From Candidatus Anaerotruncus excrementipullorum (GTDB lineage: Bacteria; Bacillota; Clostridia; Oscillospirales; Ruminococcaceae), in the NCBI GenBank assembly GCA_019114825.1, contig DXES01000121.1, positions 1 through 41,255 on the forward strand: a stretch of DNA of 41,255 nucleotides, written 5' to 3'. The notes under the pieces were generated by a model that was not told the origin of the DNA, ran no database searches, and saw only the letters and a program-made list of their open reading frames with translations. The position numbers and the translations under genes were made by a program. The first letter of the stretch is position 1. Every line of letters begins with the position of its first letter. Positions 1,227-18,467 of this stretch are shown piece after piece.

Positions 1227-2167
1227 AATTGGTGATTGCAGAACCGCTGCACATCCCCCAAAAGCGCCTGGAGGAGCTGCTGCGCCGGACGGTGGGGGAC
1301 CGGATGGAGGTGATCTCCTATGGGACCCCGCCCCAGAGCGGGGAGGAACTGGCCGGGCGCTGCCGCGAGGCGGATGCGGTGATCTTTTTAGATCTGCCGT
1401 TCAGCCGCCAGGTGCTCCGGCAGTGCCCCCGGCTCAAGCTGCTGTGTACCCTGATCACCGGGGTGGACCGCATCGACCTGCCGGCCTGCCGGGAACAGGG
1501 GATCGCTGTCTGCAACACGCCCGGCTATGCCTCCAATGCGGTGGCGGAGATGACCTTTGCGCTGCTCCTGGCGGTCACCCGCAAGGTGGTCGCCTGCGAC
1601 CGCGCCTCCCGCACCCAACAGGGCCAGCGGGGCCTCATGGGGGTGGAGCTGGAGGGCAAGACGTTCGGCGTTGCAGGGGCGGGGAGCATCGGCCTGCGGG
1701 TGGCCCGGATTGCCCAGGCGTTTGGCTGCCGGGTGCTCTGCTATAACCGCACCCCAAAACCGGAGACCGGGTTTCCCTTTGTGGACCTGGATACCCTGCT
1801 GCGCCAGAGCGACATCCTTTCCCTGCATCTGCCGCTCACCCCGCAGACCCAGCAGCTGCTCAACCGCCAGCGGCTGGCGGTGATGAAGCCCTCCGCCATC
1901 CTCATCAACACCGCCCGGGGCGGCCTGGTGGATAGCGCCGCCCTGGCCCAGCAGCTGCAGGAGGGCAGGCTGGCGGGCGCCGGCCTCGACGTACTGGACC
2001 TGGAGCCGCCCTTCCCGCCCGAGCATCCGCTGCTGCAGGCCCCCAATGTGGTGCTCGCCCCCCACATTGGCTTTGCCACCCGGGACGCCCTGGAGCGGCG
2101 GATCCGGCAGCTGGAGGAGAACCTGTCCGGCTGGCTGGGGGAGGGGGTCCCCCGCTATCCGGTTTGA
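1223..2167 (+). CDS. D-isomer-specific 2-hydroxyacid dehydrogenase, NAD-binding
   Basis: 'GKTFGVAGAGSIGLRVARIAQAFGCRVLCYNR', 'LINTARGGLVDSAAL', 'GAGLDVLDLEPPFPPEHPLL'; GTG start overlaps kinase stop (GTGA). Confidence 0.93.
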   Translation: MKLVIAEPLHIPQKRLEELLRRTVGDRMEVISYGTPPQSGEELAGRCREADAVIFLDLPFSRQVLRQCPRLKLLCTLITGVDRIDLPACREQGIAVCNTPGYASNAVAEMTFALLLAVTRKVVACDRASRTQQGQRGLMGVELEGKTFGVAGAGSIGLRVARIAQAFGCRVLCYNRTPKPETGFPFVDLDTLLRQSDILSLHLPLTPQTQQLLNRQRLAVMKPSAILINTARGGLVDSAALAQQLQEGRLAGAGLDVLDLEPPFPPEHPLLQAPNVVLAPHIGFATRDALERRIRQLEENLSGWLGEGVPRYPV

Positions 2168-2172
2168 TATGG

Positions 2173-2215
2173 AAAAACGGCTGCCTATCCGGGCAAGGAT
2201 GGGCAGCCGTTCTCG
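2173..2215. terminator. Bidirectional rho-independent terminator between convergent genes
   Basis: AACGGCTGCCTATCC (2176-2190) pairs with GGATGGGCAGCCGTT (2197-2211), one G-U; T-run on the minus side serves the SpoVB-like gene. Confidence 0.8.
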
Positions 2216-2218
2216 TGT

Positions 2219-3751
2219 TTATGGGTGAGGGCAGGTGTCTTTGGCACAAGGCCCGCCTACCGGCCGCCCGGAGTAGCCGCTCAGCCGCAATAGCGCCAGA
2301 TAGCCGGCGGCCGAGAGCAGGACGGGCAGGGCGGCCCCGGCCAGCCCGGGCAGGCTGGGCAAAACCCCCGCCCGCAGCAGCAGTTTCACCGAGAGGGCGG
2401 AGATACCGATACAGCAGAGGGGTTTGAGCAGCTTTTCATAGAGATCGAAGGGGAAGCGGGAGACGCTGGCCAGCCGGGAGAGGCTCAGGGAGAAGTTGAA
2501 CACCTCGCTGCACACGATCACCAGGAGATACCCCTTGATCCCCCACACGGGCAACAGGCAGTAGACGCACAGCATACTGCCCGCCGCATCCAACACGTTG
2601 TAGCGCATCACCGCCACCTGTTCATCCAATCCCTTGAGCATGCAGTCCACTGCGGTGTCCAGATACATCACCGGCACCACCGGGGCCAGCAGCCGGATAT
2701 AGACGGCCAGATCCGGGTTGGGGGATAGAAAGGCGGCGATCTGGCGGGGGAAGGAGAAGAGCACGCCACAGACCCCCAGGGAGCAGAGCAGGTTGAAGCT
2801 GATCAGCCGCTCCATCAGGTGGCCGATCGGCTGCCCCTGGCTGTGCCTGCGGGCGATCTCCGGGATGCTCAGGTTGGAAAAGGAGTTTAAAAAGGCGGCG
2901 GGGAAGAGGATCACCGGCAGTGCCAACCCATGTACCGTCCCGAACATGGAGAGGGAGGCCCCGGCCGAAAGGCCGCCCGCCTGCAGCCGGATGGGCACCA
3001 GCAGGTTTTTTACGGTGGTAAGCCCGGTGCGCAGGTAGGAGCTGGCCGCCACCGGCAGGGCGATGCCCAGCATCCGGGCCAAAAGCCGCCGCCCCTGGCT
3101 GGCGGGCCTGCGGTAGCGGCGGCTGTCGGCCCGGTAGAAGAGGAAGGCCGCCAGCCAGGAGATCCCCTCCGCCACCACGCCAGAGCCGGTGATCGCCAGA
3201 CAGGCGTACTCCAAGCCCGGCGGCATCAGCAGCGTCAGGGCGGCCATGGAGAGGGTGACCTTCAAAAACTGCTCCAGCACCGAGGCGGCCGCAGACTTGG
3301 CCACCCGCCCCACCGCGTTGAAATATCCGCCCAGGGCGCAGGACATGGACAAAAACGGCATGGAGAGGGCCATCACCCTGAGCGGCCGGACGGTCGCCCC
3401 CGAGCCCAATACCGCCAGCCCGATCCAGGGCGCGCTGTAAAACAGGACCGCTCCGGCGGCAGCCCCAAAAAAGCACCCATACCCCAGGCAGCGGGCCATG
3501 GCGGGGCGGATATTCCCGCTATTTTTCCCCAGCTCCTCCGCCACCAGGCGGGTGGAGGCCAGGTTGATGCCGGAGGTGGCGAAGGTGACCGCCAGGCCGT
3601 AGACCGACATGATCAGCTGGAAGACCCCCATCCCCTGGGAGCCGATCTTTTTGGCAATGTAGAGGTTGAACCAGACCCCCACCCCGTTCATCAGCAGGGA
3701 GGTGCCGGTGAGGATCAAGGCGTTCATTACAAACCGCTGGACTTTTTTCAT
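2219..3751 (-). CDS. Polysaccharide biosynthesis / SpoVB-like flippase (MOP superfamily)
   Basis: Multi-TM protein beginning MKKVQRFVMNALILTGTSLLMNGVGVWFNLYIAKKIGSQGMGVFQLIMSVYGLAVTFATSGINLASTRLVAEELG, typical of the SpoVB family. Confidence 0.85.
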   Translation of the reverse strand: MKKVQRFVMNALILTGTSLLMNGVGVWFNLYIAKKIGSQGMGVFQLIMSVYGLAVTFATSGINLASTRLVAEELGKNSGNIRPAMARCLGYGCFFGAAAGAVLFYSAPWIGLAVLGSGATVRPLRVMALSMPFLSMSCALGGYFNAVGRVAKSAAASVLEQFLKVTLSMAALTLLMPPGLEYACLAITGSGVVAEGISWLAAFLFYRADSRRYRRPASQGRRLLARMLGIALPVAASSYLRTGLTTVKNLLVPIRLQAGGLSAGASLSMFGTVHGLALPVILFPAAFLNSFSNLSIPEIARRHSQGQPIGHLMERLISFNLLCSLGVCGVLFSFPRQIAAFLSPNPDLAVYIRLLAPVVPVMYLDTAVDCMLKGLDEQVAVMRYNVLDAAGSMLCVYCLLPVWGIKGYLLVIVCSEVFNFSLSLSRLASVSRFPFDLYEKLLKPLCCIGISALSVKLLLRAGVLPSLPGLAGAALPVLLSAAGYLALLRLSGYSGRPVGGPCAKDTCPHP

Positions 3752-3918
3752 AGCGTCACCACTGTTTCCAGGTATTCACCCTACTTATATGAGAAAACTG
3801 GAAAAAGTAGTTCTCGCTCCAAGAATCGGGGCGGGGCGCTGTCCCTTTTCCCTTCCGGCGGCGGTTCTATAGGATACAGGCCAAAACCATTCGGTTTTGC
3901 CGGAGAAAAACGGATGGG

Positions 3919-3947
3919 GTGACTTTTTGTGAAAGCTGTGATATACT
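3919..3947 (+). promoter_or_regulatory. Candidate sigma-A promoter (extended -10) for ABC unit
   Basis: GTGACT-17-TATACT with TG at 3939-3940 (TGATATACT). Confidence 0.5.
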
Positions 3948-3971
3948 AGGGGGCAAGGCGGTGATTGAGGG

Positions 3972-4640
3972 ATGTTTCAACTGCAAGGCCTTACCAAGGC
4001 GTACGGCCCGGCGCGGGTGCTCCAAGGGGTAGATCTAGAGCTGCGCCCGGGGGAGGCCGTCTGCCTGGCGGGGGCCAACGCCGCAGGGAAGACCACCCTG
4101 CTCACCATCGCCGCCGGCCTGCAAAAGGCGGACGGCGGCCGGATCCTCCGGGAGGGGAAGCTGGGCTACCTGCCCCAGGAGAGCAGCCTGCTGGAGGACC
4201 TGACGGTGGAGGAGAACTTGGCCCTCTGGTACGCGGCCAACCGCCGCCCCAAAGCCGCCCTCTTTGCCCCCCAGTCGCCTGAACAGGCGCTGGAGCTGGA
4301 GCCCCACCGGAAAAAACGGGTGAGCCGGGTGTCCGGCGGGATCAAGCGCCGGGCCGGCCTGGCGGCGGCCCTCTCCGGCCGGCCCCAGTGGCTTTTGATG
4401 GATGAACCGTTTACCGCCCTGGATTTGCAGAGCCGCCAGGTGATCCTCACCCTGCTGCACACTTTGCGCGGGGAGGGGACGGGCATCCTGTTTTCCTCCC
4501 ACGACCCGGCCGCCATTGCGGCCTGCGCGGACCGGCTATTGCTTTTAAAGGCGGGCCGCATCCAGGAGGAGTTGGACTTGAGCCAAGTCCCCCCGCCAAA
4601 GCGTCTGACCCGCACCATCGAGATCCTTGCAAACGCATAA
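3972..4640 (+). CDS. ABC transporter ATP-binding protein
   Basis: Walker A 'GANAAGKTTL', signature 'VSGGIKRRAGLAAAL', Walker B 'WLLMDEPFTALD'. Confidence 0.93.
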   Translation: MFQLQGLTKAYGPARVLQGVDLELRPGEAVCLAGANAAGKTTLLTIAAGLQKADGGRILREGKLGYLPQESSLLEDLTVEENLALWYAANRRPKAALFAPQSPEQALELEPHRKKRVSRVSGGIKRRAGLAAALSGRPQWLLMDEPFTALDLQSRQVILTLLHTLRGEGTGILFSSHDPAAIAACADRLLLLKAGRIQEELDLSQVPPPKRLTRTIEILANA

Positions 4641-4686
4641 CCAATAGAGCGAAAACAAATCTGTGAATGGAAAAGGAGGAGTTCCT

Positions 4687-6405
4687 ATGGATGAAAACCA
4701 GATGGAGAACAATCAGGAGGGCATGCCCTCTGCGAACCAGGAGGCCCCGGTGACCCCCAGTCCGGAGCCGGCGCTTGCGGCGGACCAGGCGGCCGCCCCC
4801 GCCCCCAAGAGCAAGCTCCCCATGGTGCTGGGCGGGATCATTGTGGTGCTGATCATCGCCATTGTGGCCTGCTTTGCCCTGGGCGTGTTCGGCGGGGACC
4901 CGGAAAAGGCGCTGGATAAGGCGTTTGAGGCCACCGCCCAGGACCAGGAGGCGTTTTTGCAGCAGCTGCAGGAGGAGCTGCCCGCCTTCCGCCTGCTCTA
5001 TGGCGGCGAAAGCGGCGCCCGCAGCTCGGATTTCCAGTTTACCCTGGGGGCGCTGGAGTTCGCCAGCGCGTCGCCGGAGGAGCTGGCGCTGGTCAACCAG
5101 TTTGTCCAGGGCAGCGGGATGCACGGGACCTTTGTCTCCGACCCGGAGAACAGCGTCTATGAGCTGGATGGCACCCTGCAGCTGGCCGGCATGGATCTGC
5201 TGGGGCTGTATGGCTATCTCTCCCCCGACCAGGTGGCGTTTGGCGTGCCGGATTTCTCCGAGACCGCCCTGTCGGTCAACCTGCAGACGCTGGCGGAGGA
5301 TCTGACCAATAGCCCGCTCACCGCCGGAAGCATCTCCCCGGAGGAGGCCCAGCAGGCCCAGGACGCCATCCAGGCCCTGCTGCAGTACATGAATGCCCTG
5401 ATGAACATCCAGGGCGCCAGCGCCGAGATGGAGGAGGACATTATGGCCATGCTCTCCACTCTGCGGGAGGGCGCCACCTATGAGGATCTGGGCAGCGAGG
5501 ATGGGCTGAAGGTCTACGCCATGGACATCCCCGGCAGCAATGTCAAGCAGTTCCTCAGCGACCTGGTGGAGTATATCTATGTGGACAGCAGCGTCGGCCA
5601 GGCGATGGCGGGGCTGTACAACGCCGCCGGCGGCATGGAGCTGAACTACCAGGATTGGCTCCAGCAGGAGATGCTGTCCGTGCTCCAGAGCGAGGAGATG
5701 CCCGAGCTGCCCCTGCATGTGGTGGTGAAGGTGGGCAGCGGCGATTTGATCCGCGGCATGGACATCTCCCTGGATAGCCCCGAGCTGGCGGCCCAAGGCC
5801 TGGAGGAGCTGCGCTTCTTCTACACCGAGGACGAGAACCACAACCAGGAGGGCGCCTTCTATCTGAAGGCCTCCGACGCAGAGAGCGGCACGGCGGTGGA
5901 GCTGAATGTGCCGGTCACCGCCACCTACCAGGACGGCGTCTACCAGATTGCGGTCTCGTTGAGCCTGCCGGAGACCGAGGGCGTGGTGGCCGATATGACC
6001 GAGACCATCTCCATGGGCCAGGATGGCAGCTACCAGCTGGGCTTTGACTATACCATCAATGTCCAGGATCAGGCCTATCCGGATGCCAATATGGACGCGA
6101 CGGTCAACTTCAATATGGAGGGCACCGTCACCGAGGACGGGGACGCCGTGACCTACGATTTCCCCACCATCCAGATGAGCATCGGCTCTGCGGGCGAGGT
6201 AATCGGCTTCTCTTGCTCGGCCAGCGCCACCAGCACGCCGGTGGAGGGCCCCTACACCATCAGCCGTCCCACCCTGGAGCTGCTCACCGCCAGCCAGGAA
6301 GAGCTGAACGCGGAGCTGCAGAAGTATATGGATGGCTTCGAGAATCTGGTGGGCCCGCTGATGGGCAGCCTGATGGGCGTCAGCATGATGGAGCCCGCTG
6401 CCTGA
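4687..6405 (+). CDS. Single-TM membrane-anchored protein with large extracytoplasmic domain, function unknown
   Basis: Start with AAAGGAGGA upstream; disordered N-term, TM 'LPMVLGGIIVVLIIAIVACFALGVF', ~500-aa ectodomain; lies between ABC ATPase and permeases. Confidence 0.8.
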   Translation: MDENQMENNQEGMPSANQEAPVTPSPEPALAADQAAAPAPKSKLPMVLGGIIVVLIIAIVACFALGVFGGDPEKALDKAFEATAQDQEAFLQQLQEELPAFRLLYGGESGARSSDFQFTLGALEFASASPEELALVNQFVQGSGMHGTFVSDPENSVYELDGTLQLAGMDLLGLYGYLSPDQVAFGVPDFSETALSVNLQTLAEDLTNSPLTAGSISPEEAQQAQDAIQALLQYMNALMNIQGASAEMEEDIMAMLSTLREGATYEDLGSEDGLKVYAMDIPGSNVKQFLSDLVEYIYVDSSVGQAMAGLYNAAGGMELNYQDWLQQEMLSVLQSEEMPELPLHVVVKVGSGDLIRGMDISLDSPELAAQGLEELRFFYTEDENHNQEGAFYLKASDAESGTAVELNVPVTATYQDGVYQIAVSLSLPETEGVVADMTETISMGQDGSYQLGFDYTINVQDQAYPDANMDATVNFNMEGTVTEDGDAVTYDFPTIQMSIGSAGEVIGFSCSASATSTPVEGPYTISRPTLELLTASQEELNAELQKYMDGFENLVGPLMGSLMGVSMMEPAA

Positions 6406-6439
6406 CCCCTGGGCCGGCAGATCCCTGTTGGGAGTTTCT

Positions 6440-7609
6440 ATGAGGTTATTGATCGTTTCGTTTTGGATCGCATGCAAACACAGCAGCCGCCGGCTGCTGT
6501 GTTTGCTTTGCGTTTTTTTGGTTTTGGCGGGGTTGGTGGGGCTGGGCTTTGCCCTGCAGCCTCAAACGGAGCATCCCCGGGCGGTGGTGGCGGTGGTGAA
6601 CCGGGACCAGAACCCCCTGAGCCAGCAGGCGATGGAGTGGTTGGCCCAGGCCGGACCGGTCCAGGGGTTGGAGGGGATTTTGAAGCTGCGCTTTTTGGAC
6701 CAGGAGCCAGAACCGGGGAGCGGTTACACCGCTGTGGTCACCGTCCCTGATGGCTTTTTGGAGAGCGTACTCAACGGCTCCAACCTCTCCCCCAAGCTCC
6801 AGGTGGATGTGGGTTCCCCCCTGGAGGCCCTGTGGGTGGAGCGCATCGCCGAGGCCGGGGCCAGCTGGCTTACCAACGCCCAGCTGGGGGTCTACACGGT
6901 GCAGGAGCAGATTGGCTACGGCCGGGGGATGGACGCCCGCCAGTACGATATCCTGTTGGCGGGGATCAATATGGCCTACCTGCGGGCATTTTTTGACCGG
7001 CTGGACCCGTTGGAGATCGAGGAGCTCTCCGCCTCCGGGGGCCTGTCCCTGCCCGCCTACTACCTGCTGGCAGCGGCGGTGGTGCTGCTCTTTGCCTATG
7101 GCTTTCTGTTCCAGCCCGCCTGCCGGGATCTGTGGGCCTTTTCCCGGAGCTGCGGGCGGCGGATTTCCCTGTTTTTTGCCGCCGCTGCCCATGTCTACCT
7201 GTTGACGCTGGTGCTGTGCATCCTGATCACAGCGGCCGCCCGGGGGCTGTTGGCTCTGCAGGTGGCCTCCTGGCCGCACCTGCTCCTGCTGGCCCTCTTG
7301 GTGGGCGGAGGGGTCTGCCTGGCAGCGGTGCTGTTTCGGGCCTATGCCCCCTGTGCCGCCGCCTGTATCCTCTGCGCCCTGGGGATGGGGGCCTGCGGCG
7401 GCGGTTTTCTGCCGCTGGCCCTGATGCCGGTGGGGTTTGAACGGCTGGCGCCCTTGTTGCCCTTCTGGCAGGGGCTGCGGCTGCTGGGGCAGGTGTTCGG
7501 GGAGCCGGGGCAGCCCCTTTGGCAGCCGCTGGCTATGGGGATTCTGCTGTGGACGGCCGCCGCGCTGGCCTGGTTTGGAAGGAGGGGACGCCAATGCGCT
7601 ACTTCCTGA
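6440..7609 (+). CDS. ABC-2-type permease-like membrane protein
   Basis: N-terminal TM, extracytoplasmic domain, then ~6 C-terminal TM segments; same orientation as ABC ATPase. Confidence 0.75.
   Translation: MRLLIVSFWIACKHSSRRLLCLLCVFLVLAGLVGLGFALQPQTEHPRAVVAVVNRDQNPLSQQAMEWLAQAGPVQGLEGILKLRFLDQEPEPGSGYTAVVTVPDGFLESVLNGSNLSPKLQVDVGSPLEALWVERIAEAGASWLTNAQLGVYTVQEQIGYGRGMDARQYDILLAGINMAYLRAFFDRLDPLEIEELSASGGLSLPAYYLLAAAVVLLFAYGFLFQPACRDLWAFSRSCGRRISLFFAAAAHVYLLTLVLCILITAAARGLLALQVASWPHLLLLALLVGGGVCLAAVLFRAYAPCAAACILCALGMGACGGGFLPLALMPVGFERLAPLLPFWQGLRLLGQVFGEPGQPLWQPLAMGILLWTAAALAWFGRRGRQCATS
6475..6519 (+). terminator. Terminator/attenuator-like hairpin inside the permease ORF
   Basis: CAAACACAGCAGCCG (6475-6489), C, CGGCTGCTGTGTTTG (6491-6505): perfect 15-bp arms; T7 tract at 6513-6519. 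Confidence 0.5.
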
Positions 7610-8613
7610 CCCTTTTGCGCGCCCATCTGGTTTGCCGGCTGCGTTCCTCCGCCTTTTGGGCCTGCGCCCTCTGTTTTTTGCTGCTGGCGGCAACATTGGC
7701 GGCCGCCCTGCCACAGGAAAACCGGTTGAGCCTGGAGGTGGGCCTGCTTCCCCGAGGGACCTGGGGGGAGCAGGTGGCCGGACAGCTCCTGTCGGGGGAG
7801 GATTTCCGCTACCGGCGGTATACCCAGCGCCGGGAGCTGGAACGGGATATCCTTACCGGGACCCTCCACTGCGGCTACCTGTTGGAGGAGGGGGAGGTGA
7901 CGGCGCTGGTCACCGATGGCTCCTACATGCGTCCGCTGCTGGATGAGCTGGTGTTCACCGCCGCCAACCAGGTGGATGCCCCCACCATTGCCCTGGAGTT
8001 TTTGCGGCAGAGCGGCCAGCCCACCCAGGGGACCGCGGAGACCTTCCAGCGCCTGTCCAAAACCGAACCGCCTATGACGGTGGAGGTGGTGGAGCTGGGG
8101 AAGGGGGCGCCCCTGGAGCGCCTGGCCCAGGGCGGCGCCCAGCCGCTCTTCTATGCCTGCCTGGTCACCGCCTTCTTGGCGTCGGCGGTGGCCGCCGCCC
8201 TGCTGGATTCCCCCCGGCGCCAGCAGGCCCTGCGCCAGCTGGCGGTGTTGGGCGGCCGCCGGATGGGGACCGCCCTGGGAAGTGCGGCGGGGGAGCTACT
8301 GCTGAATATTCCGGTGTTGGCGGCTGCCCAGCTGGCTGCCGGGGTCTTCCTGCCCAACGCCTACTACCCCTGGCAGGCCCGGGCGGTGCTGTCGGCGGCG
8401 TTGGCCGTCCTAGCCGCCCTGTGCTATCTGGCGGCCGGCGCTGCCCGGCGGTTTCAGCGGGTTTTGGCGGTGCTGCTGCCCCTGTGGTGCTTTGGAGACG
8501 TGTTCTTTTCCGGTGCGCTGATCGATCCCGCCCGGCTGCCCTATGGGCTGGGGGCGCTGCGGCTGTTCTCCCCGGCCTGGTACGGCCTGCGGCTGTTGGA
8601 AAGTTTCCTATAA
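7594..8613 (+). CDS. Second ABC-2-type permease-like membrane protein
   Basis: MRYFLTLLRAHLVCRLRSSAFWACALCFLLLAATLA...; same topology as the preceding gene; GGAAGGAGGGG RBS; overlaps preceding ORF by 16 nt. Confidence 0.75.
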   Translation: MRYFLTLLRAHLVCRLRSSAFWACALCFLLLAATLAAALPQENRLSLEVGLLPRGTWGEQVAGQLLSGEDFRYRRYTQRRELERDILTGTLHCGYLLEEGEVTALVTDGSYMRPLLDELVFTAANQVDAPTIALEFLRQSGQPTQGTAETFQRLSKTEPPMTVEVVELGKGAPLERLAQGGAQPLFYACLVTAFLASAVAAALLDSPRRQQALRQLAVLGGRRMGTALGSAAGELLLNIPVLAAAQLAAGVFLPNAYYPWQARAVLSAALAVLAALCYLAAGAARRFQRVLAVLLPLWCFGDVFFSGALIDPARLPYGLGALRLFSPAWYGLRLLESFL

Positions 8614-8626
8614 AGGAGGAGTATGG

Positions 8627-8791
8627 ATGTACGGCTGTGCAATCCTGTCCACATTGGGCGCCTGGGTTTTGGGCCTGGTGTTGGATGCGAACATCGGCTT
8701 TTCCCCTTTGGGATTTTTAGAGCTGCGGATACTGCTGCCGGTTTTGGCTATGGGGCTCAACCTGCTCTACCGAATCAATCGGAACCGCTAA
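8627..8791 (+). CDS. Small (54 aa) two-TM-like membrane protein
   Basis: MYGCAILSTLGAWVLGLVLDANIGFSPLGFLELRILLPVLAMGLNLLYRINRNR; AAAGGAGGA 6 nt upstream of ATG. Confidence 0.55.
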   Translation: MYGCAILSTLGAWVLGLVLDANIGFSPLGFLELRILLPVLAMGLNLLYRINRNR

Positions 8792-8830
8792 TGGCCTTAA
8801 ATATGCTGTAACGTAAAACAACTTTACAGG

Positions 8831-8878
8831 AAACGGCTGCCAAAACACCTCTCGGATCGGGTTTTGGCAGCCGTTTTT
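8831..8878. terminator. Bidirectional rho-independent terminator
   Basis: AAACGGCTGCCAAAAC (8831-8846) / GTTTTGGCAGCCGTTT (8861-8876) perfect 16-bp stem, T-tract; lies between convergent genes. Confidence 0.9.
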
Positions 8879-8911
8879 AAGACAGGAAAGCAAATAAACT
8901 TTACAGAAAAA

Positions 8912-9763
8912 TCAATACACAGCCTCCCGGGCGGGACGGAGGATAAACCTTTCGATCGCCTGGGCGACCCCATCCTCCTGGTTGGTACCGGTGACCTCCC
9001 GCACCTGGTTCAGCACCTCCTGGGAGCTGTTGCCCATGGCCACCGGCAGCCCGGCGTACTGGAGCATCTCCAGGTCGTTCTGGCTGTCTCCAATGGCCAT
9101 GGTCTGCTGGGGGGAGATCCCCAAAATGGCCCCCAAATGGGCCAAACCGTGGGCTTTGGTGGCGGTGGCGGTGTTGATCTCCAGGTTCCCGGCAAAGGAG
9201 GAGGTGATCCGGATCCCCTCGGTGGCCTCCAGCAGTGCCCGTACCTGGGCGCGGCAGGTTTCTGGGACGCTGTAGAGGTTGATTTTTTCGATGGGCAGGC
9301 TGGTTTCGTATAAAAACCGGGGCAGATCGGATACCAGTTTCCGTCCGCGCATCGCCTCCTGGATCCGGGAGGGGGCAATGGGCAGGGTGCGGATGTAGTC
9401 AGCTGCCCGCTGTTCGCAGTAGTTGTAGCCGTCGCAGTAGACATCCACCGGAATAGGAAATCTGGAGAGGGCGGCGGCCAGGTCCCCGGCGGCCTTTGGG
9501 GAGAAGGTATCACTGTAAAGTAATTTTCCTGAACACAAATCACTGACCACCGCCCCGTTGGAGGTGACCGCATATTGGATCTCCGGCGCGCCAGCCAGCA
9601 GCGCCTGGGGCAGCCGGTGGCGCATCCGCCCGGTGCAGTAGGTAACCGCCACCCCCAGCCCGATTGCGGCCCGGATCGCCGCCAGGTTGGCCTGGGAGAC
9701 GGTAACCGCGTCGTTTTGCAGGACGGTGCCGTCCATATCCAGCGCAAGAAGTCTGATTGCCAT
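8912..9763 (-). CDS. Cof-type HAD-IIB family hydrolase
   Basis: MAIRLLALDMDGTVLQND... 'TSNGAVV', 'KAHGLAHLGAILGI', 'MAIGDSQNDLEMLQYAGLPVAMGN'; AAAGGAGG RBS. Confidence 0.93.
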   Translation of the reverse strand: MAIRLLALDMDGTVLQNDAVTVSQANLAAIRAAIGLGVAVTYCTGRMRHRLPQALLAGAPEIQYAVTSNGAVVSDLCSGKLLYSDTFSPKAAGDLAAALSRFPIPVDVYCDGYNYCEQRAADYIRTLPIAPSRIQEAMRGRKLVSDLPRFLYETSLPIEKINLYSVPETCRAQVRALLEATEGIRITSSFAGNLEINTATATKAHGLAHLGAILGISPQQTMAIGDSQNDLEMLQYAGLPVAMGNSSQEVLNQVREVTGTNQEDGVAQAIERFILRPAREAVY

Positions 9764-9788
9764 GGAAAAGCCTCCTTTTTCTCTTTCC

Positions 9789-9817
9789 ATTATATCCCGT
9801 CCGGCCCCGTGCGGCAA
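9789..9817 (-). promoter_or_regulatory. Sigma-A-type promoter for HAD hydrolase
   Basis: Minus strand TTGCCG-17-TATAAT (-10 = 9794..9789, -35 = 9817..9812). Confidence 0.65.
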
Positions 9818-9824
9818 ATGAAAT

Positions 9825-9853
9825 TTGACGTGGTGGACGTTTGCTGGTACAAT
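9825..9853 (+). promoter_or_regulatory. Sigma-A-type promoter for rlmA-like gene
   Basis: TTGACG-17-TACAAT with extended TG (TGGTACAAT). Confidence 0.75.
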
Positions 9854-9886
9854 GGATAAAAGCAACAGCCCTTTTGGAGGGATTTT

Positions 9887-10717
9887 ATGTTTGATTGCCC
9901 AATCTGTGGGGAACCCTTGACCTGGGAGGCCCGCATCTGCCGCTGCGCCCGGGGCCATACCTATGACCGGGCTTCCCAAGGCTATGTGAACCTGCTGCGC
10001 CCCAACCGGCAAGGCAGCCGGGATCCGGGAGACAACCGGGAGATGGTGCATGGACGCACCCAGTTTTTGGATAGCGGCAGCTATCAGCCCCTTTCGGACG
10101 CCCTCAACCGGACGGTTCTGATGCAGACCGCCGGGTCTGCCCGGCCCCGGGTGCTGGACCTGGGGTGCGGGGAGGGGTACTATGCCGCCCGCCTGGCCCA
10201 GGCCTTTTGCCGGGAGGGGCGGGAGCTGGATTTGGGGGGCGTGGACCTGTCCAAAGCGGCGGTCCGCCATGCCGCCGGGCGCTGTAAATCCGGACGGTTT
10301 GCGGTGGCCAGCCTGTTTGCGCTGCCGGTGGGGGATGGGGGCGTGGATCTCTGCTACAACGTATTTTCCCCCTTGGCCCCCCAGGAGTTTGCCCGCATTT
10401 TGTCCCCCCAGGGGCGGTTTGTGGCGGCCTATCCCGCGGCCCGGCACCTATTCGGCCTCAAACAGGTGCTCTATGACGCCCCCTATGAGAACCCGGAAAA
10501 GACGTTTGTACTGCCCGGCTTTGCCATCCGTTCCCGGGAGCGGCTGACCTTCCCCTTGGCCCTGGAGGGGCAACCGCTGATCCACAGCCTATTTCTCATG
10601 ACCCCCTATTACTACCGGACCCCGGCGGAGGGGGCCCGGCGGCTGGAGGCCCTGGACCGGTTGGAGACGGAGGCGGACTTCTGGCTGGTGACCTACGAAA
10701 AGGAGGGGCCGGCATGA
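9887..10717 (+). CDS. RlmA-type 23S rRNA (guanine-N1)-methyltransferase
   Basis: N-term zinc-finger 'FDCPICGEPL...CRCARGHTYDRASQGYVNLL', SAM motif 'VLDLGCGEGYYAARLA'. Confidence 0.88.
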   Translation: MFDCPICGEPLTWEARICRCARGHTYDRASQGYVNLLRPNRQGSRDPGDNREMVHGRTQFLDSGSYQPLSDALNRTVLMQTAGSARPRVLDLGCGEGYYAARLAQAFCREGRELDLGGVDLSKAAVRHAAGRCKSGRFAVASLFALPVGDGGVDLCYNVFSPLAPQEFARILSPQGRFVAAYPAARHLFGLKQVLYDAPYENPEKTFVLPGFAIRSRERLTFPLALEGQPLIHSLFLMTPYYYRTPAEGARRLEALDRLETEADFWLVTYEKEGPA

Positions 10718-13664: not shown

Positions 13665-13693
13665 TTGTCAAATTATTAACAATATGCTATGAT
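13665..13693 (+). promoter_or_regulatory. Promoter with overlapping Rex-like operator upstream of hydrogenase operon
   Basis: -35 TTGTCA (13665-13670), 17-nt spacer, -10 TATGAT (13688-13693), extended TG (13685-13686). TTGTCAA-ATTA-TTAACAA (13665-13682) vs Rex consensus TTGTTAA-N4-TTAACAA, 13/14. Confidence 0.75.
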
Positions 13694-13828
13694 AAATTTG
13701 TGACACAATTTGCGGAAATCCTCCGGGAGAGGATTGCAAACCGCCAAATTTTATAGTATTCTTTAAAAGAAACGCCCCCTGCGGCGAATTTTTTGGAGTG
13801 GTTTAACGAATCTGATGGAGGAATCGGT

Positions 13829-14074
13829 ATGGAAATTTATGTTTGCATCGGAAGCTCCTGCCACCTGAAGGGCTCGTACAACATCATCAATGCGCTCAAA
13901 GGCCTGATTGCGGAGTATCACCTGGAGGACCGGGTGAGCCTGAACGCATCCTTCTGCCTGGGGCAGTGCCAGCATGGCGTCACCGCCAAGATCAACGACG
14001 AGCTGGTCACCGGCCTCAACGAGGAGAATATCCGGTCTATCTTCGAGGAAAAGGTAGTGAAGGAGCTGGCGTAA
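13829..14074 (+). CDS. Thioredoxin-like [2Fe-2S] ferredoxin (NuoE/HydC-like, stand-alone)
   Basis: MEIYVCIGSSCHLKGSYNIINAL...NASFCLGQCQHGV: CxxxxC...CxxxC cysteines; adjacent to hydrogenases. Confidence 0.88.
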   Translation: MEIYVCIGSSCHLKGSYNIINALKGLIAEYHLEDRVSLNASFCLGQCQHGVTAKINDELVTGLNEENIRSIFEEKVVKELA

Positions 14075-14075
14075 T

Positions 14076-15770
14076 ATGACGGATGTTTTGAGCTTAAAGA
14101 AGGCAAACTGTAGAAACTGCCACAAGTGCATCCGGGCTTGCCCGGTGAAGTCCATCCGCTTCGCGGACAGCCAGGCCAAGATCATCCCCAAGGAGTGCAT
14201 CCTCTGCGGCCGGTGCGTGGTGGCCTGCCCCCAGAACGCCAAGCAGGTGCGCAACGACCTGACCGAGGTGATGGGAGCCATCGGCTCCGGCCAGCGGGTG
14301 ATCGCCACCCTGGCCCCCTCGTTTATCAGCGAGTTCCCGGTGTCCGGCCTGGAGCAGATGGCCGGGTATCTAAAGCAGCTGGGCTTCTCCGATGTGCGGG
14401 AGACGGCGGAGGGGGCCTATATTGTCAAAAGCGAGTATGAGAAGATGATCCAGGAGCACCGCCAGGATGTGATCATCTCCTCCTGCTGCCACACGGTGGT
14501 CACCCTGATCCAGAAATACTTCCCCGCGGTGATCCCCTACATCGCCCCGGTACAGTCCCCTATGGCGGTGAGCGGCCGCCAGATCAAGGACGAATATCCG
14601 GACGCCTATGTGGTCTTTATCGGTCCGTGCATCTCCAAAAAGGAGGAGATCGAGAAGGTCCCGGGCTTTGTGGACTGCGTGCTCACCTTCGAGGAGCTCA
14701 GGCAGTGGTTTGAGCGGCGGAAGATCCAGGTGGAACCCCAGCAGGTCCAGCCCCAGCAGGGCAGGGTCTCCCGGTTCTTCCCCCGGGTGGGCGGCATCAT
14801 TGGCTGCATGCACACCGAGAACACCGGCTGGAAATATCTGACGGTGGATGGGGTGGAGAACTGCATCAGCGCCATCGAGGAGATCCAGCGGGGCGGCCTG
14901 CGGGGCTATTTCATCGAGATGAGCGCCTGCGAGGGCAGCTGCATCAACGGACCCGCCACCAAGGCCTATCAGCAGAACATCCTGAACAGCCGGGTGCGGG
15001 TGGATACCTTTGCCCAGCCCGACCCCAACCGGAAGGACGACTTCACCACCGTCTACAAGTCCGGCTTGGTGCGCCACTACCCCAACGAGTTTGTCCACGA
15101 GCAGGTGCCCCCCGAGAGCGCCATCCTGGAGATTTTGGCCAAGATGGGCAAGACCCGCCCGGAGGACGAGCTCAACTGTGGCAGCTGCGGCTATCCCTCC
15201 TGCCGGGAGAAGGCCAAGGCGGTTTACAACGGCAAGGCGGATATCACCATGTGCCTGCCGTTCCTGTTGGGCAAGGCGGAGAGCTTCTCGGAGAACGTCT
15301 TTGCCATCTCGCCCAACGGCATCATCGTGTTGGATGAGAACCTGTGTATCCAGCGGATGAACATCTCCGCCTGCCACCTGTTCGGCGTGCAGAACTCCAA
15401 ATCCCTCCTTGGCTCCATGATCTTTGAGCTGATGGACCCCGCCGACTTTGAGACGGTGCTGGAGACCGGCAACGACATCCTGGATAAGCGGATCTATCTA
15501 GCGGAGCACGACAAGTATGTGGAGCTGTCGGTGGTGCTGGATCAGGAGAATCACTCCCTGTTCGGTATCTTCAAGGATATCACCACCGAGCAGAAGCAGA
15601 AGGAGCGGTACCGCGCGGACCGGGATAAGACGATCGACATCACCAACGGCGTCATCGAAAAGCAGATGCGCATTGTCCAGGAGATCGCCTCTCTGCTGGG
15701 CGAGACCACCGCGGAGACCAAGGTGGCCCTCACCCAGATCAAGAATACGGTGCTCGCGGAGGATGAGTAA
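14076..15770 (+). CDS. Sensory-type [FeFe]-hydrogenase: ferredoxin + H-cluster domain + additional Fe-S motif + PAS (group C / HydS-like)
   Basis: 'CRNCHKCIRACP', 'CILCGRCVVACP'; H-cluster motifs 'SSCCHT', 'GPCISKKEE', 'EMSACEGSCINGPA'; 'NCGSCGYPSCREKAKAV..C'; PAS 'NVFAISPNGIIVLDENLCIQRMNISACHLFG'. Confidence 0.9.
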   Translation: MTDVLSLKKANCRNCHKCIRACPVKSIRFADSQAKIIPKECILCGRCVVACPQNAKQVRNDLTEVMGAIGSGQRVIATLAPSFISEFPVSGLEQMAGYLKQLGFSDVRETAEGAYIVKSEYEKMIQEHRQDVIISSCCHTVVTLIQKYFPAVIPYIAPVQSPMAVSGRQIKDEYPDAYVVFIGPCISKKEEIEKVPGFVDCVLTFEELRQWFERRKIQVEPQQVQPQQGRVSRFFPRVGGIIGCMHTENTGWKYLTVDGVENCISAIEEIQRGGLRGYFIEMSACEGSCINGPATKAYQQNILNSRVRVDTFAQPDPNRKDDFTTVYKSGLVRHYPNEFVHEQVPPESAILEILAKMGKTRPEDELNCGSCGYPSCREKAKAVYNGKADITMCLPFLLGKAESFSENVFAISPNGIIVLDENLCIQRMNISACHLFGVQNSKSLLGSMIFELMDPADFETVLETGNDILDKRIYLAEHDKYVELSVVLDQENHSLFGIFKDITTEQKQKERYRADRDKTIDITNGVIEKQMRIVQEIASLLGETTAETKVALTQIKNTVLAEDE

Positions 15771-16947
15771 CGCCATGGATAAGCTGTTTATGGAGACCGG
15801 CTGGGTCAGCCTCAACAAGAAGGGGGAGGAGCTGTGCGGCGACCGGGTGGAGATCCGCCCCCAGAAGGCCAACGGCGACTTCACCATGGTGTTGGCGGAC
15901 GGGCTGGGCAGCGGCGTCAAGGCCAACATCCTCTCCACCCTCACTTCCAAGATCCTGGGCACCATGATCGACTCGGACGTGCCCATCGAGGACTGCGTGG
16001 AGACGATCGCCGCCACCCTCCCGGTCTGTAAGGTCCGGGGGGTGGCCTACGCCACCTTCACCATCCTCAAGGTCCACCAGGGGGAGATCACCCTGGTGCA
16101 GTACGACAACCCGGACGTGATCATCATCCGCGACGGCAAGCATTTTGACTACCCCAAGCAGGAAAAGGTGATGTCCGGCAAAAAGATCTACGAGACCCAC
16201 ATGCCCATCCAGCTGGGGGATGTGTTCATCGCCATGAGCGACGGGGTCATCCACGCCGGCGTGGGCCAGTCGCTGAACTTCGGCTGGGAGCGGAAGAATG
16301 TGGTGGAGTATGTGGACACCCACTTCAACCGCCAGATGTCCGCCCGGGCGGTGGCGGGGCTGATCAGCGACGCCTGCAACGACCTGTACATGGGCCTGCC
16401 GGGGGATGACACCACCGTGGCGGTGCTGCGCATCCGGGAGCGGATGCAGGTGAGCCTGATGATCGGCCCGCCGGTGAACCCGGCGGACGACGAAAAGGTG
16501 ATGCAGCTGTTCTTCAATGGGGAGGGCAAGACGGTGGTCTGCGGCGGCACCACCTCCACCATTGCGGCAAAGTACCTGCACACCAAGGTGCAGACCAAGA
16601 TCGACTACCTGGACCCGGAGATCCCGCCCATCGGCTATATCGATGGGGTGGACCTGTGTACCGAGGGCGTCCTCACCATGAAACGAGTGGTGGAGTACGC
16701 CAAAAAGTACATCGACACCTCCGGCGCTGTGCGGGAATGGGTGGGCCGCCGGGACGGCGCCTCTCTCATCTGCCAGATGCTGTTTGAGGAGGCCACCGAT
16801 GTGCGCCTGTTTGTGGGCCGGGCGATGAACCCCGCCCACCAAAACCCGGATATGCCCATCGACCTGTCCATCAAGCTGCGGCTGATGGAGGATCTGCACC
16901 TCTATTTGGGGAAGATGGGCAAACGTGTACAGATCAGCTACTACTGA
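15763..16947 (+). CDS. SpoIIE/PP2C-family Ser/Thr phosphatase with C-terminal extension
   Basis: 'MVLADGLGSGVKANILSTL', 'FIAMSDGVIHAG', 'PGDDTTVAVLRI'; 8-nt ATGAGTAA overlap with sensory hydrogenase. Confidence 0.88.
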   Translation: MSNAMDKLFMETGWVSLNKKGEELCGDRVEIRPQKANGDFTMVLADGLGSGVKANILSTLTSKILGTMIDSDVPIEDCVETIAATLPVCKVRGVAYATFTILKVHQGEITLVQYDNPDVIIIRDGKHFDYPKQEKVMSGKKIYETHMPIQLGDVFIAMSDGVIHAGVGQSLNFGWERKNVVEYVDTHFNRQMSARAVAGLISDACNDLYMGLPGDDTTVAVLRIRERMQVSLMIGPPVNPADDEKVMQLFFNGEGKTVVCGGTTSTIAAKYLHTKVQTKIDYLDPEIPPIGYIDGVDLCTEGVLTMKRVVEYAKKYIDTSGAVREWVGRRDGASLICQMLFEEATDVRLFVGRAMNPAHQNPDMPIDLSIKLRLMEDLHLYLGKMGKRVQISYY

Positions 16948-16971: not shown

Positions 16972-18417
16972 ATGGAAAGAAGCGAGATGTTTTTTGACAC
17001 AAACGTACAGCTCCTAAAGTACCGGGTCCTGAAGGGGGTCATCGAGCGGTACGACCGGGGAACGCTGAGCGAGGCCTACCGGGAGATCCCGATGGAGATC
17101 GCCCCCGGCCCCAAACCCTCCATGCGCTGCTGCGTCTACAAGGAGCGGGCGATCCTCACCGAGCGGGTGAAGCTGGCCATGGGCGGCGACAAACAGAACC
17201 CCAACGTCATCGAGTGCATCAAGATCGGCTGCGATGAGTGTACGGTGAACCGGTACCATGTGGGTTCCGCCTGCCGCGGGTGCATCGCCCACCGGTGCGA
17301 GCACGCCTGCCCCACCGGGGCGATCACCGTCTGGAAGGGGAAGGCCCACATCGACCAGGAGAAGTGCGTGGAGTGCGGCCGCTGCGCTGCGGCCTGCCCC
17401 TATTCGGCCATTATGAAGTACACCCGCCCCTGTGAGAACGCCTGCAAGATCGGGGCGATCAGCATGGACCTGGACAACTCCGCCAAGATCGACAACCACA
17501 AGTGCATCTCCTGCGGCGCCTGCGTCTACCAGTGCCCGTTTGGGGCGATTATGGATAAGTCGTTCATCCTGGACGCCCTGGAAATTCTGAAGCAGAGCGA
17601 GGGGAATACCAAATACCGGGTCTATGCGGTGGTGGCCCCCTCCATCTCCAGCCAGTTCAGCTACGCCAAGACCGGCCAGGTGGTGGCCGGGCTGAAGGCT
17701 GTCGGGTTCCACAATGTGGTGGAGGCGGCCCTGGGGGCGGATATGGTGGCCTATGAGGAGGCTGCGGAGTTGGCCGAAAAGGGCTTTTTGACCAGCTCCT
17801 GCTGCCCGGCGTTCGTCCAGTACATCAAAAGCGCCTTCCCCAGCATGGTGGAGCACATTTCCCACAACCCCTCCCCCATGGAGGCGGTGGCCCGGTTTAT
17901 CAAGCGCACCGACCCCAACGCCAAATGCATCTTTGTGGGGCCCTGTACCGCCAAAAAGATGGAGTTCCAGCAGGAGAACGTCACCGGCGTGGACTGTGTC
18001 ATCACCTTTGAGGAGCTGCAGGCCCTGTTTGACGCCCGGGATGTGACGCTGGAGGCGTTGGAGGAGGAGCTGCTGGACAACGCTTCCTACTACGGGCGGA
18101 TCTTCGCCCGCAGCGGCGGCCTTTCGGACGCCGTTCGGGAGGCGCTGAAGGAGCGGGGGATCACCCCCGAGCAGTTCACCGCCAAGCCGCTGGCCTGCGA
18201 TGGCATTGTGGAGTGCAAGACCGCCCTGCTGAAGGCCAGCAAGAACGTGCTCCCCGAGAACTTTATCGAGGGGATGGCCTGTGTGGGTGGCTGCATCGGC
18301 GGCGCGGCCTGCGTCACCCACGGCCCCAAGGACAAGAGCGAGGTCAACAAGTACGGCCAGCTGGCCAAGGAGAAGACGATCCTGGATGCCCTCCAGGTCA
18401 CCCATCTGGCGAAGTGA
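16972..18417 (+). CDS. Monomeric [FeFe]-hydrogenase with N-terminal 4Fe-4S clusters (group B-like)
   Basis: Multiple CxxCxxCxxxCP; H-cluster motifs 'LTSSCCPAF', 'VGPCTAKKMEF', 'EGMACVGGCIGGAACV'. Confidence 0.93.
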   Translation: MERSEMFFDTNVQLLKYRVLKGVIERYDRGTLSEAYREIPMEIAPGPKPSMRCCVYKERAILTERVKLAMGGDKQNPNVIECIKIGCDECTVNRYHVGSACRGCIAHRCEHACPTGAITVWKGKAHIDQEKCVECGRCAAACPYSAIMKYTRPCENACKIGAISMDLDNSAKIDNHKCISCGACVYQCPFGAIMDKSFILDALEILKQSEGNTKYRVYAVVAPSISSQFSYAKTGQVVAGLKAVGFHNVVEAALGADMVAYEEAAELAEKGFLTSSCCPAFVQYIKSAFPSMVEHISHNPSPMEAVARFIKRTDPNAKCIFVGPCTAKKMEFQQENVTGVDCVITFEELQALFDARDVTLEALEEELLDNASYYGRIFARSGGLSDAVREALKERGITPEQFTAKPLACDGIVECKTALLKASKNVLPENFIEGMACVGGCIGGAACVTHGPKDKSEVNKYGQLAKEKTILDALQVTHLAK

Positions 18418-18429
18418 AGGAGGCCCTTC

Positions 18430-18467
18430 AAAAATGCAGGAACTTGCAAAAGTTCCTGCATTTTTTT
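18430..18467 (+). terminator. Rho-independent terminator after hydrogenase operon
   Basis: AAAAATGCAGGAACTT (18430-18445), GCAA loop, AAGTTCCTGCATTTTT (18450-18465), further T's. Confidence 0.93.

Follow-up and report, generated by a model that had tools for sequence, protein, structure and literature searches.

A predicted Rex operator before the sensory [FeFe]-hydrogenase operon of Anaerotruncus and a candidate operator for another Rex lineage in Oscillospirales

Is an operon that is proposed to sense H2 itself set by the NADH balance of the cell? The question is raised by the 41,255-nucleotide stretch of Candidatus Anaerotruncus excrementipullorum DNA analyzed here (the window), where an earlier note had described a near-perfect Rex-like operator in front of a hydrogenase operon. 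Rex is an established sensor of NADH/NAD+. The window is one contig (C42) of a metagenome-assembled draft genome of 1.94 Mb in 199 contigs, about 79% complete, all of which was scanned. Both the letters and the coordinates of the operator proved exact: TTGTCAAATTATTAACAA (TTGTCAA-ATTA-TTAACAA), at 13665-13682 and assigned to neither strand, agrees with TTGTTAA-N4-TTAACAA at 13 of the 14 specified positions, with one mismatch, and thus has the palindrome and the 4-nt core of a clostridial-type Rex operator. It is the sole match with three or fewer mismatches in the window (0.13 expected) and the sole match with at most one mismatch, hence the best, in the whole draft genome. The 197-bp intergenic region that holds it lies between an upstream YgjP-like gene and hfsA, and in 30,000 dinucleotide-preserving shuffles of this region a site with at most one mismatch arose at a frequency of 0.00013. 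We annotate it as a predicted Rex operator on the grounds of its near-consensus sequence, its low chance of arising and its retention in relatives. Across the draft genome, sites with three or fewer mismatches number 19, against 28 for the reversed control, and sites with two or fewer likewise show no excess over that control. Weak Rex-like matches therefore carry no meaning alone, and their bulk count was dropped as evidence; unlike them, the strong site in the hfs leader is meaningful.

The operon behind this site is complete and lies on the forward strand. The hfsA-like gene (13829-14074; PF01257, E = 1.5e-9; conserved in relatives) has a GGAGG ribosome-binding site upstream and encodes an 81-aa thioredoxin-like 2Fe-2S protein. 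It is followed by an hfsB/hydS-like gene (14076-15770) for a sensory [FeFe]-hydrogenase of 564 aa with 4Fe-4S, FeS and PAS domains (Pfam Fe_hyd_lg_C, 1.4e-50, together with FeS and PAS matches and alignment with relatives), by an hfsC-like gene for a SpoIIE-type serine phosphatase (15775-16947; PF07228, 2.4e-15; start set by relatives) and by an hfsD/hydA2-like gene for a group B monomeric [FeFe]-hydrogenase (16972-18417; TIGR04105, 555 bits against a cut-off of 450). An intrinsic terminator with a 12-bp stem, a 4-nt loop and a T run closes the operon at 18434-18467 of the same strand; the terminator scan did not list this hairpin, which was read by eye and then folded (-22.2 kcal/mol, z = -6.8). 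The gene order is identical to that of hfsABCD in Thermoanaerobacterium, and it is from genetics in such relatives that HfsB has been proposed to be an H2 sensor that alters gene expression.

The left half of the operator doubles as the -35 element of a promoter, P1 (13665-13693, forward strand), as the earlier note had stated: the -35 TTGTCA (13665-13670) is followed by a 17-nt spacer and an extended -10, TGC-TATGAT, whose hexamer occupies 13688-13693, giving 10 of 12 consensus positions plus the TG. The palindrome therefore spans the P1 -35 together with the larger part of its spacer. A second promoter-like element, P2, was overlooked in that note. It lies outside the operator at 13734-13762 on the forward strand (-35 TTGCAA, 17-nt spacer, -10 TATTCT), its -35 beginning 51 nt past the operator and 40 nt downstream of the P1 -10. 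P2 is better conserved across the genus than P1: an aligned equivalent, always with a 17-nt spacer, is present in all ten Anaerotruncus loci that have the operon (TTGCAA or TTGAAA to TATNCT; TTGCRC to TATTAT in A. colihominis), and P1 is retained only in the window, in its nearest relative G008 (TTGTCA-17-TATAAT) and in G004 (TTGTCA-17-TAAAAT). No Rfam element was found in the hfs leader. A conserved TATAGTATNCT form of the P2 -10 occurs in most Anaerotruncus leaders and also before oadG, and this form may point to a promoter type that the genus prefers.

To be read by Rex, the site needs a Rex protein, and two rex genes were found in the source genome, so that the refutation named by the earlier note, a genome with no rex, does not apply. 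The canonical rex adjoins icd on contig C133, whose end cuts it down to a fragment of just 62 codons; the fragment includes the helix TASQIRQDLN. In Caproicibacterium lactatifermentans, which we take to belong to the same bacterial order as Anaerotruncus, rex likewise neighbors icd, in an operon with icd and acn. The second gene, rex2, is complete on contig C176 (L017, 134-898) and stands directly ahead of ldh. All 11 Anaerotruncus genomes searched (the source genome and 10 others) contain rex. PDB 3wg9 is presumably the Rex of Thermoanaerobacter ethanolicus, with an operator complex in the same structure series. The full canonical Rex of G008 matches 3wg9 at 2e-68 and has the same recognition helix, TASQIRQDLN, and the same wing, GGFGQQGYGYNV, so that the DNA-reading helix of the C133 fragment, and both helix and wing of its orthologue, agree with this structure. 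In T. maritima Rex, Arg48 and Lys49 contact the major groove, and Arg60 and Gly61 of the wing contact the minor groove (PMC8836258).

Conservation within the genus bears on whether the palindrome is an operator at all. The hfs operon is present in 10 of the 11 genus genomes, the source included (G006 lacks an orthologue), and a Rex box with two or fewer mismatches precedes it in 7 of the 10 loci. In the window, G008 and G004 the box lies over the separate upstream promoter P1; in A. massiliensis and G010 it abuts the P2 -35; and in A. colihominis (two genomes) it directly follows the P2 -10. As the seven box-bearing loci are related, they are counted as about three independent placements. The operon leaders of G005, G007 and G009 have no convincing Rex box, the best match having four mismatches. 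Between the window and G008 the sole differing base within the box falls in the N4 core, and in general relatives keep the site, its spacing as expected and its core variable, which agrees with the earlier claim of a Rex operator before this operon. Because the promoter stays in place as the box shifts, it is probably control by Rex that has been selected, and not merely a particular piece of sequence. The same data weigh on the possibility that the palindrome is a mere -35 element whose dyad arose by chance and to which no repressor binds. Its deviation from the consensus (C for T) is the very base that improves the -35, and weak Rex-like matches show no genome-wide enrichment, both of which would fit such an origin. 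However, the chance of the dyad in this intergenic region is only about 1e-4, the full dyad, including the half outside the -35, is retained in relatives, and the boxes of A. colihominis and A. massiliensis are found at places other than the -35. Together with the enrichment described below, these observations make a chance dyad extremely unlikely.

Rex boxes were also found elsewhere in the genus, before a thiolase gene in A. colihominis and A. massiliensis and before adhE in G004, and with two mismatches before the phosphoglycerate kinase gene pgk in the source genome; the gene names at these sites and at the one described next were read from the sequences. Thiolase, adhE and glycolysis genes, pgk included, are recognized kinds of Rex target. 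A further Rex-like box, TTGTTAAAATTTTTTCAA or its complement, lies upstream of an oadG-type sodium-pump decarboxylase gene in A. massiliensis (L170, 1501-1518) and A. colihominis (L160, 1449-1466), in the former just ahead of a P2-like promoter. For this shared site pgk had been considered as the target and was dropped, as the reading frames of the A. massiliensis copy put it before oadG.

To look beyond the genus, we collected 80 relatives in named public genomes, 74 of which have a recognizable hfsA and enough leader. These loci are nearest matches and are not a phylogenetically balanced sample; within it, 17 of the 74 operons bear a box with two or fewer mismatches within 250 bp upstream of hfsA, where shuffles expect 0.28. 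No box was found upstream of hfsA in the 74 operons with the reversed motif or with spacers of 2, 3, 5 or 6. Upstream of hfsA there are 0.94 boxes per kb, compared with 0.029 per kb in the rest of these loci, and among 4,148 AT-matched windows only 14 contain a Rex box. This strong enrichment before orthologous operons is the further observation that speaks against a chance dyad. It also bears on whether the box serves another dyad-binding regulator, for example of the Crp/Fnr type or specific to hydrogenases. Rex binding is a prediction here, and AT-rich TTG...CAA dyads are common to several regulator families. Fnr-type sites have the form TTG-N8-CAA. Only the Rex spacing (TTG-N12-CAA, with a 4-nt core) is enriched, and we therefore consider another regulator very unlikely, leaving Rex as the expected reader of the box.

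It might appear that most relatives simply have no box, and this view was revised, as many of the matches found elsewhere proved to lie in the leaders of longer operons: they are about 4 kb upstream of hfsA because those operons start with adhE and a kinase-like gene. With operon leaders assigned by script, the box is present at the leader in 26 of 72 operons and absent from 46, and by first gene it is found in 15 of 33 hfsA-led, 8 of 12 adhE-led and 2 of 18 rex2-led operons. In many related loci the operon consists of adhE, a kinase-like gene (about 249 aa), hfsA, hfsB, hfsC and hfsD, at times with rex2 first (L087, L094, L105, L112, L120 and L121; at about 2000-10300). The Ruminococcus albus hydS unit reportedly includes adhE, a kinase, a phosphatase and a redox-sensing repressor, and this layout was seen in related loci surveyed here. 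Two tandem hfsA-like 2Fe-2S genes precede hfsB in L094 (5440-5989) and L120 (5495-6023).

Taken together, the 18-bp palindrome is very probably the operator of canonical Rex, adjusting hfsABCD through P1 over a floor provided by P2. When NAD+ prevails, Rex would cover the -35 region and spacer of P1 and block this promoter. When NADH/NAD+ rises, NADH-bound Rex would release the DNA and P1 would raise hfsABCD transcription, so that the sensory hydrogenase, its presumed phosphatase partner and the group B hydrogenase would be supplied by P1 as NADH accumulates. In T. maritima Rex, NADH binding shifts the DNA-binding domains and frees the protein from DNA (PMC8836258). Derepression by NADH, and the rank above the H2/PAS input that the earlier note had given it, are both drawn by analogy from the Rex family. 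P2, which lies outside the operator, probably maintains a basal level of expression, and Rex would tune the H2-sensing module instead of switching it fully on and off. Judged from the position of P2, it is not obvious that Rex at P1 would block it, and as P2 is also the more widely conserved promoter, Rex control in the source species may be only partial. In A. colihominis and A. massiliensis, where the box touches P2, control may be tighter.

A weaker form of this explanation holds that Rex binds and that P2 is the main promoter, which would make the effect of the operator minor or conditional in the source species. The alignment of P2 in all ten loci, as against three for P1, would favor it, and so would a P2-like element, TTGCAA-17-TATACT, read from the sequence ahead of oadG in A. 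massiliensis, which suggests that such a promoter type is likely used in the genus. On the other hand, P1 outscores P2 against the consensus (11.5 vs. 8.5), and the sister species has not only retained P1 but has an improved form of it. We regard P2 as the main promoter as possible but doubtful, and prefer the reading in which Rex adjusts the operon through P1 above the P2 floor.

The arrangement has precedents. In Thermoanaerobacterium saccharolyticum, a Rex site, TTGTTAATAAATTAACTA, has been predicted at -78 upstream of hfsA in hfsABCD (Tsac_1550; PMC5886521, Table 5), so that the wiring read here before the hydrogenase operon had already been predicted. Operon type and Rex motif are alike, but that prediction concerns a single thermophile, whereas Anaerotruncus is a mesophilic gut genus in which the box lies over the P1 -35 and is accompanied by a second promoter, and the evidence is comparative across many genera. 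Rex before hfsABCD is thus not new; the present data add how widely the box occurs in gut Clostridia and that its position moves. Rex operators precede other hydrogenase genes as well. Rex has been reported to regulate [FeFe]-hydrogenase operons and hydG in Caldicellulosiruptor bescii (EMSA, PMC6391272) and Clostridium thermocellum (DAP-seq, PMC8457756), the latter with the identical consensus TTGTTAA-N4-TTAACAA; however, the validated targets, the five-gene hyd operon of C. bescii and clo1313_1885-1881 of C. thermocellum, are other hydrogenase operons, not demonstrated to be the PAS-hydrogenase module. In C. lactatifermentans a Rex-like box also stands before a hydrogenase gene, but this is hydA alone and the predicted site, TTGTTATAATAAAAACAA, is weak (PMC9600882). 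The hydS/hydA2 genes of R. albus, as cited in PMC5707799 and PMC11837493, comprise a sensory PAS-hydrogenase followed by a ferredoxin-dependent hydrogenase, with proposed H2 sensing and an adjacent Ser/Thr kinase; the Anaerotruncus operon resembles this unit but has no adhE or kinase gene.

Group B [FeFe]-hydrogenases are reportedly the chief source of H2 in the human gut (PMC12578642), and the Anaerotruncus operon pairs such an enzyme with its putative H2 sensor. The retention of a Rex operator before the operon across gut Clostridia suggests that the sensing equipment is likely set by NADH balance, in which case the sensing of H2 and that of NADH would form layers instead of simply running side by side. 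This bears on ethanol engineering, in which hfsB and rex deletions have been studied separately; deletion of hfsB in T. saccharolyticum led to more ethanol and higher adhE transcripts (PMC5707799).

The loci of the order rex2-adhE-kinase-hfs mostly have no TTGTTAA box, and an unbiased count of palindromes in their leaders yielded ATATCG...CGATAT, refined to TATCGRTA-N6/7-TAYCGATA. Exact copies, TATCGATA-N6/7-TAYCGATA, occur in 33 of 295 Oscillospirales genomes, compared with 1 for the reversed pattern. Rex2-type proteins (E ≤ 1e-50) were found in 59 of the 295 genomes, and motif and Rex2 occur together in 26 (P = 5e-15, Fisher test). By our own count, rex2 lies directly downstream of the motif in 16 of the 30 motif loci fetched, and the remaining loci include sites before adhE, an iron alcohol dehydrogenase gene, a hydrogenase gene or an Nfn-like gene. 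Conversely, 17 of 30 rex2 leaders bear the palindrome with two or fewer mismatches, where mononucleotide shuffling expects 0.05. The helix and wing of Rex2 (QVRKDL and GKPKTGY) differ from those of canonical Rex (QIRQDL and GQQGYGY). The palindrome is thus a candidate second Rex operator that the Rex2 lineage may read. Rex2 stays a candidate binder, since in seven of the 295 genomes the palindrome is present and Rex2 was not detected, and a single dimer would not usually accept gaps of both 6 and 7.

This second protein also needs to be weighed at 13665-13682, where Rex2, encoded beside ldh, might bind in place of canonical Rex. About 20 related loci have a Rex2 homolog encoded within their adhE-kinase-hfs operon, but the rex2-led operons seldom bear a TTGTTAA box, most having the TATCGRTA palindrome instead, and the Anaerotruncus genomes with a single Rex-domain gene (G002, G004 and G010) still keep the TTGTTAA box. 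Binding of Rex2 at this site is accordingly very unlikely, and canonical Rex is retained as its reader. On balance, we lean slightly toward a sensory-hydrogenase fermentation module that is placed under Rex in two DNA codes, one for canonical Rex (TTGTTAA-N4-TTAACAA, in hfsA- or adhE-led operons) and one for Rex2 (TATCGRTA-N6/7-TAYCGATA, in rex2-adhE-kinase-hfs or rex2-ldh units). If this is true, the Rex family would gain a novel kind of member, a paralogue whose operator has changed; the genome of the window encodes both proteins. A literature search found no description of TATCGRTA-N6/7-TAYCGATA, which is weak evidence of novelty; whether a Rex paralogue uses an operator of its own can be tested directly on this palindrome. 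In the source genome, the leader of the rex2-ldh pair bears a copy with two mismatches, TATAAGTAAAGTTTTATCGATA, and the pair is also found in G008 (three mismatches) and G228 (a perfect copy). Positions of the palindrome include 1570 in L086, 1488 in L089, 1317 in L091, 3855 in L099, 985 in L125, 1236 in L136 and 1501 in L137, and it was likewise observed in L176-L205.
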